A stretch of 64,000 bases of DNA. Origin: Caldicellulosiruptor saccharolyticus DSM 8903. GTDB lineage: Bacteria; Bacillota; Thermoanaerobacteria; Caldicellulosiruptorales; Caldicellulosiruptoraceae. The stretch is taken from the NCBI RefSeq assembly GCF_000016545.1, contig NC_009437.1, positions 1,999,394 through 2,063,393 on the forward strand, given 5' to 3'. Positions 2,028 through 9,545 of the stretch are shown here, in pieces; positions within the stretch are counted from its first letter, which is position 1; each line of letters starts with the position of its first letter. The position numbers and the translations under genes are program-made. The notes under the pieces are model-generated. The model saw only the letters and a list, made by a program, of their open reading frames with translations. It was not told the DNA's origin and made no database searches.

Positions 2028-3362
2028 ATGCCTTTTAATCTGCATTCAATAATGCTTGATAGAGAAAAGTGCAGAGGGTGTACAAATTGTATTAAAAAGT
2101 GTCCAACAGAAGCAATAAGAGTAAGAAGTTCAAAAGCAAGAATTATTGATCAAAGATGTATAGACTGTGGTGAGTGTATACGAACATGCCCGTATCATGC
2201 AAAATATGCCGTAACAAATAGTTTAGATGATATTAAAAAATACGAATATAAAGTTGCTTTACCAGCTCCGTCATTTTATGCTCAATTTGAAACAGATGAT
2301 ATCAATAAACTATTACATGCATTGTTAGAAATAGGATTTGATGACATATTTGAAGTGGCAAAAGCAGCAGAGATTGTAACAGAGTTTACAAAAGAGTTTA
2401 TTTCAAAAAAGAAAGATAAAAGACCCATAATTTCTTCTGCCTGCCCAGCAGTTGTAAGGCTTATCCAGACAAAATTTCCAGATTTGATTGATAATATCCT
2501 GCCACTTGCCTCTCCAATGGAGGTTGCAGCCTACCTTGCAAAAAAAATAATAAACAGGCAAAAAGGTATTGAAACAGACAGAATAGGTGCTTTTTTTATT
2601 TCACCTTGTGCAGCAAAGATGACTTATGTAAACTCGCCTCTTGGGTTTGAAAAGTCATATGTTGATGGAGTAATTGCTATCAAAGATATTTATGGACTTG
2701 TTAGAAGCAAGCTAAAAAGTATAAAAGATGTGAAACCTATTTCTATTGCATCTGGGAAAGGAATTGGATGGGCAGCATCTGGCGGAGAAAGTTTAGCCTT
2801 GGGAATTGATGAGTATGTAAATGTGGATGGAATTCATAATGTTATAAAGGTTTTGGAAGAGATTGAAAATGGAAGGCTGAATAATATTATTTACTTTGAA
2901 GGACTTGCATGTAGTGGAGGTTGTGTGGGTGGGCCGTTGACAGTAGAAAACCCCTATGTTGCTAAAAATAGAATCAAAAAATGGAGTTCTAAACTTGCAG
3001 ACAAAGCCCAAATATTGGAAGGAAATACTCGAAAAATTGTAAATGATCTTGGGATAAGGATGGAGGACCTTTTGTTTAGAAAAGAATTGGAGGCAAACCC
3101 TGTATTAGAGCTTGATTCTGATATAGAAGAGGCTATGAAAAAGTATGAGAGGGTAAATGAAATATTAAAGATTTTGCCTGGATTGGACTGTGGTGCATGT
3201 GGTTCTCCAACGTGCAAAACCCTTGCAGAGGACATAGTCAGAGGTTTGGCAAACGATACAGATTGTATCTTTATCCTTCGTGAAAATATTAAAGAGCTTG
3301 CAAATAAAATGGTTGAGCTTTCGAATAAACTACCACCATCACTTGAAAGGGATGAGGAATAA
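2028..3362 (+). CDS. Putative sensory [FeFe]-hydrogenase (HydS-like, group D type)
   Basis: 444 residues. The N-terminus carries two [4Fe-4S] ferredoxin motifs (C-R-G-C-T-N-C-I-K-K-C-P and C-I-D-C-G-E-C-I-R-T-C-P). The centre is an H-cluster domain whose L1 loop reads S-S-A-C-P-A (Ala138-Cys139), L2 S-P-C-A-A-K, and L3 A-C-S-G-G-C-V-G-G. The C-terminus has a further Fe-S motif C-G-A-C-G-S-P-T-C with a later Cys. The four likely H-cluster cysteines remain, but the first Cys of the usual T-S-C-C-P motif, the proton-relay residue, is Ala and the L2 Met is Ser. That pattern is known from low-activity putative sensory enzymes such as Thermoanaerobacter mathranii HydS. ATG 2028 was chosen because A-A-G-G-A-A-G-T-G-A lies at 2010-2019; GTG 2016 sits inside that site. 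It probably reports hydrogen or redox state (inference). Confidence 0.85.
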   Translation: MPFNLHSIMLDREKCRGCTNCIKKCPTEAIRVRSSKARIIDQRCIDCGECIRTCPYHAKYAVTNSLDDIKKYEYKVALPAPSFYAQFETDDINKLLHALLEIGFDDIFEVAKAAEIVTEFTKEFISKKKDKRPIISSACPAVVRLIQTKFPDLIDNILPLASPMEVAAYLAKKIINRQKGIETDRIGAFFISPCAAKMTYVNSPLGFEKSYVDGVIAIKDIYGLVRSKLKSIKDVKPISIASGKGIGWAASGGESLALGIDEYVNVDGIHNVIKVLEEIENGRLNNIIYFEGLACSGGCVGGPLTVENPYVAKNRIKKWSSKLADKAQILEGNTRKIVNDLGIRMEDLLFRKELEANPVLELDSDIEEAMKKYERVNEILKILPGLDCGACGSPTCKTLAEDIVRGLANDTDCIFILRENIKELANKMVELSNKLPPSLERDEE

Positions 3363-3716
3363 ATGCCAAGAGTTGCGTACCTAAGAAAATATTTTAACCT
3401 TGTGAATGATGTTATTAGAGATAATGATGTGTATGAAAATGTGTATATTGGAGATGTTTTGAGCTTTGCAATTTCACATATCAAAGACAATAGCATTTGG
3501 ATAACAATTCAGAACAACATAAATGTCATTGCAGTGGCAACTTTGAGAGATGTGAAGGCTATCATATTAACAGAAGGAGTAAAGCCAGATGCCAATATGC
3601 TTCAAAAATCTAAACAGGAAAATATTCCTATTTTCACAACCGAGCTTTCTCATTTTGAGACCGCAAAATTACTAATTCTTCAAGAGAAGGAAGGTCAAAA
3701 TGAAACTTTATTATGA
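3363..3716 (+). CDS. DRTGG domain protein (second copy)
   Basis: A 117-residue protein related to the 1212-1562 product: N-V-I-A-V-A-T-L-R-D-V-K-A-I-I-L-T-E-G corresponds to the second half of the DRTGG fold, and I-P-I-F-T-T-E-L matches the terminal strand. The ATG follows the stop of the HydS-like gene directly, and the 3' end overlaps the PHP gene by 17 bases, so the three are very probably co-transcribed and coupled. No catalytic motif is visible. Its function is unknown; ligand-binding or protein-docking roles are guesses based on the family. Confidence 0.78.
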   Translation: MPRVAYLRKYFNLVNDVIRDNDVYENVYIGDVLSFAISHIKDNSIWITIQNNINVIAVATLRDVKAIILTEGVKPDANMLQKSKQENIPIFTTELSHFETAKLLILQEKEGQNETLL

Positions 3717-4395
3717 CCTGCATATTCACTCTGCGCTCTCACCTTGTGCTGACAATGACATGACCCCAAACAATATAATAAACATGGCAAAGATAAAGGG
3801 ACTAAATGTAATTTCTATAACAGACCATAATTCTACATTAAATTTAAAAGAGTTCTCGGAGGTTGCAAAACATCTTGGGATTTTATTTATCCCTGGTGTT
3901 GAGATAGAAACTTGTGAAGAAGTCCATGTTCTTTTATATTTCAAAGATTTCTCTGTAGTGGAAGAGTTTCAAGAGATTATTGAAGAAAACCTTCCAAACG
4001 TAGTCTTGAGAGAGGATATATATGGAAATCAGTTCTTAGTGGACAAGGAAGACAATATTGTCGGAAGCTATAAAAAACTTCTGCTCCAACCACTGAATTT
4101 AAGTATATCTCAAGTTTATGAAATTTCAAAGTTTTACAATATGATTTTTGTTCCAGCCCATATCAATAGACAATCCTATGGAATAATTGGAAGGCTGGGG
4201 ACATTACCAGATGAACTAAAAGATGTTTCAATTCTTGAAGTCTCAAAAGTCAACGAATTTGAATTTTCGAAGTTTTTGCCGAAAGATAGCAGGTACATTT
4301 TTTTACACTCTTCTGATGCACATCATCTATGGGATATTAACGAAAAGGAGTTTTTTATTGAAAGTGATATACTGTATACAATATTTTTCAAGTAA
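3700..4395 (+). CDS. PHP domain metal-dependent phosphoesterase
   Basis: 231 residues with the PHP signature: D-L-H-I-H-S-A-L-S-P near the N-terminus, T-D-H-N about residue 45, a Glu in G-V-E-I, H-V-L, P-A-H-I-N, and S-S-D-A-H at the C-terminal end. These His/Asp residues normally bind two or three metal ions, and PHP proteins hydrolyse phosphoesters. The substrate cannot be predicted. The gene overlaps the DRTGG gene and ends the regulatory group; a gap of about 110 bases with a promoter and Rex-like site follows. PHP proteins recur beside clostridial [FeFe]-hydrogenase genes, and the reason is not established. Confidence 0.85.
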   Translation: MKLYYDLHIHSALSPCADNDMTPNNIINMAKIKGLNVISITDHNSTLNLKEFSEVAKHLGILFIPGVEIETCEEVHVLLYFKDFSVVEEFQEIIEENLPNVVLREDIYGNQFLVDKEDNIVGSYKKLLLQPLNLSISQVYEISKFYNMIFVPAHINRQSYGIIGRLGTLPDELKDVSILEVSKVNEFEFSKFLPKDSRYIFLHSSDAHHLWDINEKEFFIESDILYTIFFK

Positions 4396-4413
4396 ATTCT
4401 CCAAAATTTATAC

Positions 4414-4442
4414 TTCATTTATACCCTATTATATGTTACAAT
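4414..4442 (+). promoter_or_regulatory. Possible promoter of the hyd operon
   Basis: T-A-C-A-A-T at 4437-4442 is a fair -10 box. A weak T-T-C-A-T-T lies 17 bases upstream. It is the best candidate between the PHP gene and hydC, and places a start site just ahead of the Rex-like repeat. The -35 match is poor, so this is tentative. Confidence 0.3.
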
Positions 4443-4465
4443 AGTGAAAGTAGGTGTAATTGAAT

Positions 4466-4483
4466 ATGTTAAATTTCTAACAA
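4466..4483 (+). promoter_or_regulatory. Candidate Rex operator
   Basis: The 18-base ATGTTAAATTTCTAACAA matches 12 of the 14 defined positions of the Rex consensus TTGTTAA-N4-TTAACAA. Rex is the NADH/NAD+-responsive repressor of fermentative and hydrogenase genes in Firmicutes. The site lies between the likely promoter and the hydC Shine-Dalgarno, where a bound repressor would block transcription of the operon. Regulation is inferred; the rex gene is not in the window. Confidence 0.6.
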
Positions 4484-4503
4484 TAGAAGGGGGATGCGAT
4501 TTA

Positions 4504-4986
4504 ATGTCTTGTTGCCAAGGCAAAAATCTGACCGAGGAAAACTTCAAAAAACTTGATGAGATTATTGAAAAAAACAAATCAAGAAGAGGTGCTCTAATTC
4601 CTGTTTTGCATGAGGCACAAGAGCTATTTGGATACTTGCCATACGAGGTACAAAAGAGAATTGCAGAGGGTCTGAACATTCCAATGGCAGAGGTTTATGG
4701 GGTAGCAACATTTTATACAAGGTTTACATTAAAACCAACAGGGGATCACAAGATTAGTGTATGCATGGGAACTGCTTGCTATGTAAAAGGTGCAGATAAA
4801 ATTTTGGATAAATTAAAAGAGCTATTAAAGATTGACGTTGGTGGCACAACTGAAGATGGGAAATTCTCTATTGAAGCAACAAGATGCTTAGGAGCTTGTG
4901 GACTTGCACCTGTTGTTGTAATTGATAACACTGTCTATGGGAAATTAGCACCTGAAGATATTGAAAATATCTTGTCAAGATATTAA
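4504..4986 (+). CDS. hydC: NAD-dependent [FeFe]-hydrogenase subunit HydC (NuoE-like)
   Basis: 160 residues, homologous to the 24-kDa NuoE subunit. A helical N-terminal part contains G-A-L-I-P-V-L-H-E-A-Q and V-A-T-F-Y-T-R-F, followed by a thioredoxin-like domain with [2Fe-2S] ligands in C-M-G-T-A-C-Y and C-L-G-A-C-G. In trimeric bifurcating hydrogenases HydC holds one [2Fe-2S] cluster next to HydB. ATG 4504 is preceded by G-A-A-G-G-G-G-G at 4486-4493; an in-frame GTG at 4444 lies upstream of the Rex-like site and is less likely. First gene of the hydrogenase operon. Confidence 0.92.
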   Translation: MSCCQGKNLTEENFKKLDEIIEKNKSRRGALIPVLHEAQELFGYLPYEVQKRIAEGLNIPMAEVYGVATFYTRFTLKPTGDHKISVCMGTACYVKGADKILDKLKELLKIDVGGTTEDGKFSIEATRCLGACGLAPVVVIDNTVYGKLAPEDIENILSRY

Positions 4987-5031
4987 CTTAACAAAATGTC
5001 TGTGTGATAAGAATAAAATAGGGTGATTTGG

Positions 5032-5592
5032 TTGAACGAACTTTCACTTTATATCCTTGACCTTGTGCAAAATTCAATTGAAGCTGGGGCAACGTTTGTT
5101 AAGATTGAGGTTGTTGAAGATTTAGAAAATGACTTATTTTTAATCTCAATTGAGGACAATGGGAGAGGTATACCAAAAGAGTTAATAAATGAAGTGACAA
5201 ATCCTTTTTATACTACAAGGAAAACAAGAAAAATAGGGCTTGGTTTGGCACTTGCTTCACAGCTTGCAAAAGACTGTAATGGAAAGCTTTTTATTGAGTC
5301 ATCTGAAAATGGCACAAAAGTAAAAATTAAGCTTCAGCATTCGCATATTGACAGGCCACCACTTGGAAATATTGTTGATACTCTCCTACTTTTGATATGT
5401 GGTGCGCCAGATGTGGATTTTGTTTATGTGCACAGAGCTGACAAAAAAGAGTTTGTTTTTGATACAAATAAGCTAAAAAGTGTTCTTGGAGATGATGTAC
5501 CTCTCAATTTGCCAAGTGTACAAGAGTTTATTAAGGAAGAGCTCTCAAGAGGGTTATCAAATTTATTTGGAGGTGCGAATTTCAATGATTAA
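5032..5592 (+). CDS. GHKL ATPase (histidine-kinase-like) of the hydrogenase operon
   Basis: 186 residues. An N-box L-D-L-V-Q-N-S-I-E-A-G-A sits at the very N-terminus, then D-N-G-R-G-I-P and a G2 box G-L-G-L-A-L-A. There is no dimerisation/phospho-acceptor domain, no sensor and no transmembrane segment, so it is an isolated HATPase_c domain. A C-terminal stretch of about 70 residues (from H-I-D-R-P-P-L-G-N) is extra to the fold. TTG 5032 is favoured by A-G-G-G-T-G-A-T just upstream. A similar ATPase gene sits between hydC and hydB in other thermophilic clostridia. Its role is unknown; assembly or regulation of the hydrogenase is possible. Confidence 0.8.
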   Translation: MNELSLYILDLVQNSIEAGATFVKIEVVEDLENDLFLISIEDNGRGIPKELINEVTNPFYTTRKTRKIGLGLALASQLAKDCNGKLFIESSENGTKVKIKLQHSHIDRPPLGNIVDTLLLLICGAPDVDFVYVHRADKKEFVFDTNKLKSVLGDDVPLNLPSVQEFIKEELSRGLSNLFGGANFND

Positions 5593-5974
5593 GTCTATTC
5601 AGGAACTTGAAGAGATAAGAAAAAAGGCATTGGAAGAGCTTGAATTTAGAAAACAACAAGGAGAGGGAATCAGAATAGTTGTTGGTATGGCAACATGTGG
5701 AATAGCAGCAGGTGCAAGACCTGTTATGCTAAAGTTTGTGGAGGAGATTCAAAAAAGAAGTCTTAAGAATGTAACAGTTGTTCAAACAGGTTGTATAGGT
5801 CTTTGCAAATATGAGCCAATTGTAGAAGTATATGAGCCAAACAAAGAGAAGGTAACATATGTAAAAATGACACCTGAAAAAGTTTCAAGAGTGGTTGCTG
5901 AGCATATTGTGAATGGAAAGCCAGTTTATGAATACACAATTGGCTATGAAGAAAATAAAGAAGCAAACAAATAA
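5585..5974 (+). CDS. Thioredoxin-like [2Fe-2S] ferredoxin (HydD-like)
   Basis: 129 residues; an N-terminal helix is followed by a thioredoxin-like [2Fe-2S] domain with ligands in M-A-T-C-G-I-A-A-G-A and T-G-C-I-G-L-C. It resembles the C-terminal half of NuoE/HydC without the helical extension. ATG 5585 has G-G-A-G-G-T-G at 5569-5575 and overlaps the ATPase stop by 8 bases; longer in-frame starts run deep into that gene. Small [2Fe-2S] proteins of this type accompany hydABC in several clostridia and may be an extra electron carrier (inference). Confidence 0.85.
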   Translation: MIKSIQELEEIRKKALEELEFRKQQGEGIRIVVGMATCGIAAGARPVMLKFVEEIQKRSLKNVTVVQTGCIGLCKYEPIVEVYEPNKEKVTYVKMTPEKVSRVVAEHIVNGKPVYEYTIGYEENKEANK

Positions 5975-5991: not shown

Positions 5992-7788
5992 ATGCCATTA
6001 TATAGAGCACATGTTCTTGTATGTGGTGGGACAGGTTGTACATCAGGTGGGTCAGACAAGATATATGATGCATTTTTGAAAGAGATAGAAAATTTCAACT
6101 TAAAAGATGAGGTTCAAGTAATTCGTACGGGATGTTTTGGACTTTGTGCAGAAGGTCCGATTGTCATTGTCTATCCCGAAGGTGCATTCTATAGTAAGGT
6201 TGCAGACTCTGATGTAAAAGAGATTGTGGAAGAACATCTTTTAAAAGGAAGAATAGTAAAAAGGCTTTTGTATAAAGAGTCACTTGAAGAAGGCCAGATA
6301 AGGTCCTTAAATGAAGTCAAGTTCTACAAAAAGCAGATGCGAATTGCTCTTAGAAACTGCGGTGTTATAAATCCAGAAAACATTGAAGAGTATATAGCAT
6401 ACGACGGATACAAAGCTTTAGCAAAGGTCTTGACAGAGATGACTCCAGAGCAGGTAATTGACTGGGTAAAAAGGTCGGGCTTAAGAGGAAGAGGTGGCGG
6501 TGGATTCCCAACAGGTTTGAAATGGGAATTTGCAGCAAAAGCACCAGGTGATGTTAAGTATGTTGTCTGCAATGCTGACGAAGGTGACCCTGGTGCGTAC
6601 ATGGATAGGAGCATCTTAGAGGGTGACCCACATTCTGTTATTGAGGCTATGGCAATTGCTGGTTATGCAATTGGCTCAAAACAAGGCTATGTTTACGTCA
6701 GGGCTGAATATCCGCTGGCTGTCAAGAGACTTGAGATTGCGATAAACCAGGCAAGAGAGTATGGGCTTCTGGGCAAGAATATTTTGGGAACAGACTTTGA
6801 ATTTGATATAGAGATAAGACTTGGTGCTGGTGCATTTGTTTGCGGTGAGGAGACAGCTTTAATGACATCAATTGAAGGTCATCGTGGAGAGCCAAGACCA
6901 AGACCACCATTCCCAGCTGTAAAGGGACTTTGGAGCAAACCAACACTTTTGAACAATGTTGAGACGTATGCAAATATTCCTGTGATAATCCTCAAAGGAC
7001 CAGAGTGGTTTGCATCAATCGGAACAGAAAAGAGCAAGGGTACAAAGGTATTTGCACTTGTTGGAAAGGTCAACAACACAGGACTTATTGAAGTTCCAAT
7101 GGGGACAACTGTAAGAGAAATAGTCGAAGACATTGGCGGTGGAATACCAGGTGGTAAGAAATTCAAAGCTGTTCAGACAGGTGGACCATCTGGTGGATGC
7201 ATTCCTGCATCACTTATGGATACACCAATTGACTTTGACTCACTCACAGCTCTTGGTACAATGATGGGTTCTGGTGGCATGATTGTAATGGATGAAGATA
7301 CCTGTATGGTTGATATAGCAAAGTTCTTCTTAGAGTTCACAGTTGATGAGTCATGTGGAAAGTGTCCACCATGTAGAATAGGAACAAGAAGAATGCTTGA
7401 GATTTTGCAAAAGATTACAAGTGGAAACGGGACAGAAGAGGATTTAGAGAAGTTAGAAGAGCTTGCATATTCAATTAAGGACAGCGCTCTTTGTGGACTT
7501 GGTCAGACAGCACCAAATCCAGTTTTGAGTACACTCAGATACTTTAGAGATGAATATGAAGCACATGTCAAAGAAAAGAGATGTCCAGCAGGGGCATGTA
7601 AGGCACTTTTAAGAATTGTAATTGACAAAGATCTTTGCAAAGGCTGTGGTATCTGTGCTAAGAACTGTCCTGCAAATGCTATAACTGGGCAGATTAAAAA
7701 GCCGTTTGAGATTGATCAAGAAAAGTGTATTAAGTGTGGAGTATGTATAGAAAAATGTCCATTCAAAGCAATCTCTAAGAAGGCTTAA
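5992..7788 (+). CDS. hydB: NAD-dependent [FeFe]-hydrogenase flavoprotein subunit HydB (NuoF-like)
   Basis: 598 residues in three parts: an N-terminal thioredoxin-like [2Fe-2S] domain (C-G-G-T-G-C-T, then G-C-F-G-L-C), a NuoF core with the FMN/NAD(H)-binding G-R-G-G-G-G-F-P-T-G and the [4Fe-4S] motif E-S-C-G-K-C-P-P-C-R-I-G-T, and a C-terminal two-[4Fe-4S] ferredoxin domain (C-K-G-C-G-I-C-A-K-N-C-P and C-I-K-C-G-V-C-I-E-K-C-P). This architecture is that of HydB in the Thermotoga/Acetobacterium-type HydABC complex, which couples NADH and reduced ferredoxin to H2 (electron bifurcation/confurcation). Strong Shine-Dalgarno G-G-G-A-G-G precedes the ATG. Confidence 0.95.
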   Translation: MPLYRAHVLVCGGTGCTSGGSDKIYDAFLKEIENFNLKDEVQVIRTGCFGLCAEGPIVIVYPEGAFYSKVADSDVKEIVEEHLLKGRIVKRLLYKESLEEGQIRSLNEVKFYKKQMRIALRNCGVINPENIEEYIAYDGYKALAKVLTEMTPEQVIDWVKRSGLRGRGGGGFPTGLKWEFAAKAPGDVKYVVCNADEGDPGAYMDRSILEGDPHSVIEAMAIAGYAIGSKQGYVYVRAEYPLAVKRLEIAINQAREYGLLGKNILGTDFEFDIEIRLGAGAFVCGEETALMTSIEGHRGEPRPRPPFPAVKGLWSKPTLLNNVETYANIPVIILKGPEWFASIGTEKSKGTKVFALVGKVNNTGLIEVPMGTTVREIVEDIGGGIPGGKKFKAVQTGGPSGGCIPASLMDTPIDFDSLTALGTMMGSGGMIVMDEDTCMVDIAKFFLEFTVDESCGKCPPCRIGTRRMLEILQKITSGNGTEEDLEKLEELAYSIKDSALCGLGQTAPNPVLSTLRYFRDEYEAHVKEKRCPAGACKALLRIVIDKDLCKGCGICAKNCPANAITGQIKKPFEIDQEKCIKCGVCIEKCPFKAISKKA

Positions 7789-7805: not shown

Positions 7806-9545
7806 ATGGAGATGGTGAATATAACAATAGATGGCAAGAAACTTCAGGTACCAAAGGACTACACTGTTTTGCAAGCAGCACGTGAGGCAGGAGTTGAAAT
7901 TCCAACCCTTTGTTACTTAAAAGGTATAAATGAGATTGGCGCTTGTAGGATGTGTGTTGTTGAAATAAAAGGTGCAAGGAGCTTGCAAGCAGCTTGTGTT
8001 TATCCTGTGTCAGAAGGTATGGAGGTTATCACAAACAGTGAAAGAGTAAGAAGAGCAAGAAAGGTTAATCTTGAGCTGATTTTGTCCAACCATGACAGAA
8101 ACTGCTTAACATGTATAAGGAGTGGCAATTGTGAACTTCAAAGACTGGCTGAGGATTTAAACGTAAAGCAGATAAGATATGAAGGTGAAAATATAAGACG
8201 GCCACTTGACGACTTTTCACCTTCAATTGTTAGAGACCCGAACAAATGTGTACTTTGCAAAAGATGTATTAATGTATGTAGAAATGTCCAAGAAGTTGGT
8301 GTTATAAATGCAAACTATAGAGGTTTTAGAACGGTTGTCTCAACAGCGTTTGACAGAAGTTTGAATGATGTTGCATGTACAATGTGTGGTCAGTGTATCC
8401 AAGCATGCCCTGTCGGGGCACTTCGTGAAAAGGATTCTACTGATATTGTATGGAAGGCTTTGGCTGATAAGAACAAATATGTTGTTGTTCAAACAGCACC
8501 AGCTGTAAGAGTTGCGCTTGGTGAGGAATTTGGTCTTCCGATTGGGACCCGTGTGACAGGTAAGATGGTAACAGCTCTTAAGATGCTTGGATTTGACAAG
8601 GTATTTGACACAGACACAGGTGCAGACCTTACAATCATGGAAGAAGGCACAGAGCTTATAAATAGAATCAAAAATGGTGGGAAGCTTCCGCTTATTACTT
8701 CATGCTCACCCGGATGGATAAAATTCTGTGAACACTACTTCCCAGAATTCTTAGACAATTTATCAACTTGCAAATCTCCACATGAGATGTTTGGAGCAAT
8801 TTTGAAAACATACTATGCGCAGAAGATGGGAATTGATCCTGCTAACATGTTTGTAGTCTCCATAATGCCATGCACAGCCAAAAAGTTTGAAGCGCAAAGA
8901 GAAGAGCTTGCAGCAAGTGGATATCCTGATGTAGATGCTGTGCTGACAACAAGAGAACTTGCCCGGATGATAAAGGAAGCAGGAATAGATTTTGTTAACC
9001 TGCCAGACAATCATTTTGACGACCCAATGGGTGATGCAACAGGCGCAGGTGTCATTTTTGGCACAACAGGTGGTGTAATGGAAGCAGCACTTAGGACAGT
9101 ATACGAGATTTTGACAGGGAAGCCACTTGAAAATGTAGAAATTACACAGGTTCGTGGTTTGGAAGGAATAAGAGAAGCAGAAATTGATGTTGGTACAATG
9201 AAGATAAAGGCTGCAGTTGCACACGGGCTTGCTAATGCAAAGAAACTGCTTGAGATGGTTAAAAACGGTGAAAAGGAATATCACTTTATAGAAATCATGG
9301 CATGTCCTGGTGGTTGTATAATGGGCGGTGGCCAGCCAATTGTCCCAGCAAAGGTAAGAGAAAAAATAGATGTTGCAAAGCTAAGAGCAAGTGCTATATA
9401 TGACGAGGATAGATCACTGCCAATAAGAAAGTCTCATGAAAATCCGACAATCAAAAAGCTATATGAAGAGTTCTTAGGACATCCAAATAGTGAAAAAGCG
9501 CATCATATACTTCATACACATTATAAGAGAAGACCGTTGTATTAA
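7806..9545 (+). CDS. hydA: NAD-dependent [FeFe]-hydrogenase catalytic subunit HydA
   Basis: 579 residues. N-terminal [2Fe-2S] domain (G-A-C-R-M-C-V-V-E), a His-ligated [4Fe-4S] site (H-D-R-N-C-L-T-C), two [4Fe-4S] motifs (C-V-L-C-K-R-C and C-T-M-C-G-Q-C), then the H-cluster domain with L1 T-S-C-S-P-G-W (Cys300), L2 M-P-C-T-A-K-K-F-E and L3 M-A-C-P-G-G-C-I-M-G-G-G. The last 45 residues (L-Y-E-E-F-L-G and H-T-H-Y) match the small-subunit segment fused to the large subunit. It reduces protons to H2 as part of HydABC. L1 has Ser where many monomeric enzymes have a second Cys. The operon ends at the terminator 57 bases downstream. Confidence 0.95.
   Translation: MEMVNITIDGKKLQVPKDYTVLQAAREAGVEIPTLCYLKGINEIGACRMCVVEIKGARSLQAACVYPVSEGMEVITNSERVRRARKVNLELILSNHDRNCLTCIRSGNCELQRLAEDLNVKQIRYEGENIRRPLDDFSPSIVRDPNKCVLCKRCINVCRNVQEVGVINANYRGFRTVVSTAFDRSLNDVACTMCGQCIQACPVGALREKDSTDIVWKALADKNKYVVVQTAPAVRVALGEEFGLPIGTRVTGKMVTALKMLGFDKVFDTDTGADLTIMEEGTELINRIKNGGKLPLITSCSPGWIKFCEHYFPEFLDNLSTCKSPHEMFGAILKTYYAQKMGIDPANMFVVSIMPCTAKKFEAQREELAASGYPDVDAVLTTRELARMIKEAGIDFVNLPDNHFDDPMGDATGAGVIFGTTGGVMEAALRTVYEILTGKPLENVEITQVRGLEGIREAEIDVGTMKIKAAVAHGLANAKKLLEMVKNGEKEYHFIEIMACPGGCIMGGGQPIVPAKVREKIDVAKLRASAIYDEDRSLPIRKSHENPTIKKLYEEFLGHPNSEKAHHILHTHYKRRPLY

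Follow-up and report, generated by a model that had tools for sequence, protein, structure and literature searches.

What signals set the expression of the NADH-linked hydrogenase operon of Caldicellulosiruptor saccharolyticus, and does one regulator suffice to explain its control? We addressed this question in a 64,000-nucleotide stretch of the chromosome (hereafter the window) that carries the hyd operon. A preliminary description of the window had read a palindrome in the hydC leader as a Rex-like operator, Rex being a protein that senses the NADH/NAD+ ratio. We compared the promoter region with those of 11 relatives of the same genus and one genome of a sister genus, and with more distant bacteria. 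Statements on published work below follow the accessible portions of the papers cited.

Layout of the hyd operon and its leader

The features of the locus are collected in Table 1. The score of HydA in the NCBIfam model 'NADH-dependent [FeFe] hydrogenase, group A6' lies above the cut-off. An upstream module encoding a HydS-like protein is co-directional with hydC, from which it is separated by a gap of 108 bp between the stop of the PHP gene (4395) and the hydC ATG (4504), and no terminator was called on the + strand within 3700-5100. This arrangement, together with a second conserved element in the last gene of the module (see below), is a reservation on the earlier proposal that Rex would act here separately from the HydS-like module. 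The profile search gave no PAS domain match in the HydS-like protein. An anti-sigma-like ATPase is also encoded in this module (1567-1986), and the protein at 5032-5592 within the hyd operon has a histidine-kinase-type ATPase domain without the kinase core. The hydC promoter was read by eye as TTCATT (4414-4419) and TGT-TACAAT (4434-4442), with a putative transcription start near 4449. A consensus promoter scan, whose rule demands 4/6 in the first hexamer, did not call it; TACAATA (4437-4443) is invariant in all 13 genomes.

Table 1. Features of the hyd locus (positions in the window)
Feature	Position	Strand	Basis or remark
HydS-like [FeFe] hydrogenase-domain protein, upstream module	2028..3362	+	PF02906, PF04060
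PHP-domain protein, last gene of upstream module	3700..4395	+	PF02811
Longest run without variation in the ~2.1-kb alignment	4351..4385	+	35 nt, 12 genus genomes; inside PHP gene
Candidate second operator TGATATACTGTATACAA	4365..4381	+	within 3' end of PHP gene; centre about -76 from inferred start
Inferred hydC promoter, extended -10: TTCATT - 17 bp - TGT-TACAAT	4414..4442	+	read by eye
Decayed second Rex-like site ATGTTACAATAGTGAAAG	4433..4450	+	overlaps -10 of hydC promoter
Probable Rex operator ATGTTAAATTTCTAACAA, hydC leader	4466..4483	+	match, conservation, published Rex control of operon
Ribosome binding site AAGGGGG	4487..4493	+	sequence
hydC, NuoE-like [2Fe-2S] subunit	4504..4986	+	PF01257 183 bits
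HATPase domain protein within hyd operon	5032..5592	+	PF02518
Small [2Fe-2S] thioredoxin-like ferredoxin	5588..5974	+	PF01257 23.4 bits, just below cut-off
hydB, NuoF-like NADH/FMN subunit	5992..7788	+	PF01512, PF10589
hydA, [FeFe] hydrogenase group A6	7806..9545	+	NF040763 960 bits, cut-off 765

A probable Rex site in the hydC leader

The sequence ATGTTAAATTTCTAACAA agrees with 12 of the 14 fixed positions of TTGTTAA-N4-TTAACAA, exactly as the preliminary description had claimed; compared with TTGTTAANNNNTTAACAA, the two mismatches fall at site positions 1 and 12. It has the form of an 18-bp palindrome close to TTGTTAA/TTGTGAA-N4 plus complement and is self-complementary in 6 of 9 possible pairs. 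The site lies 38 bp 5' of the hydC ATG and, as had been stated, lies between the candidate promoter and the ribosome binding site, about 17 bp 3' of the inferred start, so that it would span about +17 to +34.

Such a match is common by chance. The window holds three matches to the Rex pattern at 12/14 where 2.18 are expected, and the whole genome has 81, as against 83 for the reversed pattern that served as the control. Because the genome count equals the control, a 12/14 match count alone proves nothing. The genome-wide scan that had been suggested as a check showed no excess in its raw count. In a first-order simulation of a single 108-nt leader, a match with at most two mismatches arose with P ~0.004, a slightly low value because the simulation skipped a few sequence windows. 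We regard the match as credible for its place and its conservation rather than for the number of matches.

The 14 fixed positions of the site are unchanged in all 12 genus genomes (our own and the 11 relatives), and the site always lies 38 bp before the ATG, also in the sister genus, which retains it with a C to A change at position 12, already off the consensus. Among the 12 genus genomes, one of the 18 columns of the site varies compared with 34 of the 90 other columns of the gap (Fisher p 0.006); when the sister genus is added, the counts are 3/18 and 56/90 (p 0.0005), the p-values being indicative only since the compared genomes are related by descent. The variable columns are the spacer positions 8 and 9 together with the mismatched position 12. 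Of 17 hydC leaders read outside the family, 4 carry a Rex site with at most two mismatches within 250 bp, though its place varies among them; the other 13 have no match at this threshold.

A second Rex-like site overlies the -10 element (Table 1). It is present as ATGTTACAATATTAACAG, with three mismatches, in 7 of the 12 genus genomes and with four mismatches in two more and in the sister genus; it has been lost in the species of the window and in two others of the genus.

Rex and its known targets

The lack of a rex gene had been named as a finding that would speak against Rex control. We found a single rex gene in the genome, encoding 219 aa (PF06971, 72.3 bits), and the protein could be aligned to solved Rex proteins over 214 residues, with 3wg9 among its best relatives. 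Each of the 12 genus genomes has one rex gene, and the other 11 proteins are 88-97% identical to that of the window species; for G011, one of the 11, the match runs into a stop at residue 214 of 219.

In the regions that we read around further matches in this genome, intergenic sites of the same type occur at two adhA copies, at another gene for an iron-containing alcohol dehydrogenase, at the membrane hydrogenase, at a 4Fe-4S protein gene that we take to be GorS, and at a pyruvate-carboxylase-like gene (L064). Numerous further matches fall within genes or 5' of unrelated ones, in keeping with the count for the control. The two adhA copies (L017, L050) are nearly identical and share an identical Rex-like site, ATGTTAAAATTATAACAA; the second open reading frame ends early (268 versus 383 aa).

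Rex control of the hyd operon is already known, and the site is of a published kind. For C. saccharolyticus it is a published prediction (RegPrecise and Bielen 2013, both cited in PMC6391272), and a model supported by gel shifts exists for the hyd operon of C. bescii (Athe_1295), where NADH disrupted the binding of Rex to its operators (PMC6391272). The C. bescii operator belongs to the same operon type and lies 39 bp from the ATG, compared with 38 bp here; the gel shifts used C. bescii protein and probes, whereas our evidence comes from sequence. In a reconstruction covering 14 Caldicellulosiruptor species, hyd is among the Rex targets conserved in all, Hyd, MBH and Pta are all targets, and Rex is read as a repressor of Hyd and an activator of MBH, whose site lies upstream (PMC8579813). 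The accessible text of that study does not mention a second operator or the Rex-like site over the -10. A Rex DAP-seq peak was also reported on the orthologous operon of C. thermocellum (PMC8457756).

A candidate second operator upstream of the hyd promoter

The longest invariant stretch of the alignment does not contain the Rex site and instead lies within the PHP gene (Table 1). Eleven third codon positions in a row are unchanged in it; in the gene as a whole, 179 of 231 codons vary at this position, and none of 200,000 shuffles matched the run when positions were treated as independent. The stretch contains TGATATACTGTATACAA, an instance of the form TTGTATAC-N-GTATACAA, which has two mismatches to TTGTATACNGTATACAA here and one in the sister-genus copy; positions 4368-4385 are invariant in 13/13 genomes. 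Rex is probably not the only regulator of the hyd operon, as this second conserved element, ~76 bp 5' of the inferred start, points to a further one.

We searched 41 genomes for TTGTATACNGTATACAA with at most two mismatches. Three sites, located before hydC, the MBH operon and pta, are common to all 12 genus genomes, and they are the sole sites in seven of the 12 (gene identities: pta PF01515; MBH PF00361/PF00146). The copy at the MBH promoter, TTGCATACTGTATACAA, overlaps the inferred -35 and in this genome directly adjoins a Rex site, TTGTTAACAAATTAACTT; the copy at the pta promoter, TTGTATACAAGATACAA, is identical in 12/12 and lies 7 nt before TATAAT. The core is CTGTATACAA at the hydC element and at mbh, and TTGTATACAA at pta. 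The Rex site and the second operator of the [NiFe]-hydrogenase promoter stand side by side (L126, 2046-2080; genome C1:1696045-1696079); at the membrane hydrogenase of the sister genus (L128), the second operator is kept and there is no clear Rex site. The window genome has nine sites at this threshold versus four for the reversed pattern, and the seven genomes with only the three common sites have 3 versus 1 to 5. As raw counts there do not rise above the reversed control, the evidence is the shared place and not the number. We regard TTGTATAC-N-GTATACAA as very probably the site of a real regulator.

A stricter scan of the class, allowing at most one mismatch, found sites in 25 of 37 genomes, 32 in all, as against two for the reversed control. 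Of these, 15 belong to mbh, 10 to DUF1847, three to secondary alcohol dehydrogenase genes (sADH) and one to hydC, the site preceding the gene or lying at its start in all 29 cases; the remaining three are elsewhere (L108, L095, L241). Nfn-like genes follow the alcohol dehydrogenase in L082 and L084. A looser copy lies 5' of a 2Fe-2S / FeFe-hydrogenase / SpoIIE cluster in four g4 loci (L088, L090, L093, L094); we take this cluster, in which the PAS match remains below its cut-off, to be the known hfsABC(D) (PMC5707799, PMC11837493). A Rex site has also been predicted at the hfs cluster (PMC5886521). Just upstream of the hfs-like cluster, the same four loci encode a CsoR-like regulator and a DUF3006 protein (PF11213 in L088).

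Across the phylum, 43 of 398 genomes have a match. Outside the class there were 32 among 383 genomes, compared with eight genomes matching the reversed pattern, and the 24 loci that we read there have contexts mostly unrelated to hydrogenases; in two of the phylum loci (L168, L172) a GntR-like gene, judged by eye, adjoins the site. The unrelated contexts indicate that such palindromes are not confined to a hydrogenase-linked system.

Which protein might bind the second operator

We know of no regulator that has been reported to bind TTGTATAC-N-GTATACAA. Fur (PF01475) and CsoR (PF02583) were set aside, as both occur in 37/37 class genomes and give no discrimination. The Fur gene found near DUF1847 is also unlikely: one genome (G025) has an exact operator without such a Fur, and in another (G023) the Fur gene is split.

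Our lead candidate, as yet weakly supported, is a GntR/FCD protein whose gene stands between IspE-like and MobA-like genes in this genome, in the sister genus and in the relatives read. Operators of FadR-subfamily GntR proteins consist of TKGT/ACMA boxes with a spacing that is usually 3 nt, or 2 nt in certain groups (PMC4494728). The second-operator core YTGTATACAA resembles TKGT-N2-ACMA, with C instead of T in the first position at some sites, but the long form differs in having two overlapping cores.

The distribution of sites fits the candidate weakly. At the one-mismatch threshold, sites occur in one of the four class genomes without an intact GntR/FCD gene versus 24 of the other 33, in part of which the ispE linkage was read. 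The four comprise G022, which has none by PF07729, and G030, G036 and G029, in which the gene is frame-broken; G022, G030 and G036 have no second-operator site at this threshold, and G029 has one (L122). The break of the ispE-linked gene falls at residues 174-180 in all three (L221, L222 and L242 for G030, G036 and G029), and this shared break could reflect wear, a slippery tract or a sequencing error. A GntR/FCD gene without any site at the one-mismatch threshold is seen in nine other genomes (G013, G014, G018, G019, G020, G024, G027, G034 and G035, the last 89% complete); in G014 and G020 a looser copy lies 5' of the hfs-like cluster, and by coordinates G018 probably has one as well. As to a copy that might serve autoregulation, TTGTATAATATATACAA precedes ispE in the two f4 genomes, but it contains a -10-like TATAAT, and the ispE-GntR operon of the window genome carries no copy at two or fewer mismatches.

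The same protein appears to have emerged from genetics in Thermoanaerobacterium. The GntR regulator Tsac_0749 was repeatedly mutated in evolved strains with hydrogenase/Nfn deletions, and the accessible part of this 2026 study of T. saccharolyticum (PMC13277313) left its targets open. The GntR copy of G015 (g4) has N23, A24, L36, R53, L110 and K151, i.e. the six residues mutated in Tsac_0749. These six matching residues indicate that the two are very likely the same gene, judged from sequence, and the ispE-linked GntR genes are likely orthologues of Tsac_0749. We tentatively propose a link between the ispE-linked GntR protein and the second operator.

Discussion

We consider the palindrome at 4466-4483 to be the operator of Rex at the hyd operon with a probability of about 0.9. 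Genus-wide conservation, the rex orthologues, the sibling sites elsewhere in the genome, the sites in a minority of the leaders outside the family and the published work count in favour of this reading; the larger number of unmatched outside leaders, the genome count and the rex-deletion data from C. bescii count against it. The earlier proposal that Rex ties this hydrogenase to the NADH/NAD+ ratio gains support from the rex gene, the published Rex control and the group A6 assignment of HydA. When the NADH/NAD+ ratio is low, the Rex dimer would bind about 17-34 nt 3' of the transcription start and stand in the way of RNA polymerase; when the ratio is high, NADH would free Rex and the NADH-linked [FeFe] hydrogenase would be made. 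In this scheme, the precise promoter and the action of Rex as a roadblock at hydC are inferred.

Two simpler explanations of the palindrome fare poorly. It might be a functionless chance match in AT-rich DNA, as the genome count near its control and the slight excess in the window would allow, but the column conservation, the fixed place in 12/12 genomes, the low probability of a match in the leader and the published Rex control make this very improbable. Still less probable is an RNA hairpin that controls translation. The palindrome does lie in the untranslated leader just 5' of the ribosome site, but the leader folds no better than shuffled sequences (z 0.48) and the half-sites are not paired with each other in the predicted fold, so we rejected this reading.

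The more serious alternative concerns the weight of Rex rather than its binding. Rex may bind, yet the putative other regulator at 4365-4381 may mainly set the expression of the operon, Rex mattering for instance at high H2 pressure. In the rex deletion of C. bescii, the hyd operon showed log2 changes of -0.13, -0.35 and -0.38 (PMC6391272), a slight lowering that is a misfit with simple repression and amounts to no derepression. The invariant run of the upstream element is also longer than that of the Rex site, and sites resembling this element are found again at the promoters of the [NiFe] hydrogenase and of pta. On the other side, PMC8579813 concludes that Rex represses the hyd operon. The C. 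saccharolyticus hydrogenase is up-regulated at high H2 pressure (PMC4187192), and bifurcation by Hyd is disputed between PMC4187192 and PMC8579813. We regard a dominant second regulator as a real prospect that falls somewhat short of even odds. The fuller scheme, in which Hyd, Mbh and pta are jointly under Rex and a second regulator at TTGTATAC-N-GTATACAA that is the ispE-linked GntR/FCD protein (the Tsac_0749 orthologue), with related organisms using the same operator at hfs, sADH/Nfn-like and DUF1847 genes, is unlikely to hold in every part; we lowered our estimate slightly because G029 has a site and a frame-broken GntR gene.

With the Rex site, a redox circuit that is already in the literature is borne out for a model hydrogen producer. 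What was unexpected and, to our knowledge, is undescribed is the candidate second operator at hyd, mbh and pta. GTATACTGTATAC and TTGTATACTGTATACAA were not found in published main texts, motif logos in figures lying outside such a letter search, and CTGTATACAA together with 'operator' retrieved from main texts only a paper on the K-state of B. subtilis. The motif of C. thermocellum GntR_1482 was described as 'two nearly palindromic repeats', and the targets named in the accessible part of that paper are not hydrogenases (PMC8457756); if that motif equals the second operator, the latter is already in print. For the control of hydrogen formation, the second operator matters more than the Rex site, given a rex deletion without derepression of the hyd operon. 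The accessible Thermoanaerobacterium literature did not report how HfsB (HydS-like) is linked to gene expression, nor did it name the targets of the repeatedly mutated GntR. One operator type at the hyd, mbh, pta, hfs and sADH/Nfn promoters would offer a direct and cheap test of how hydrogen and alcohol formation are co-ordinated.
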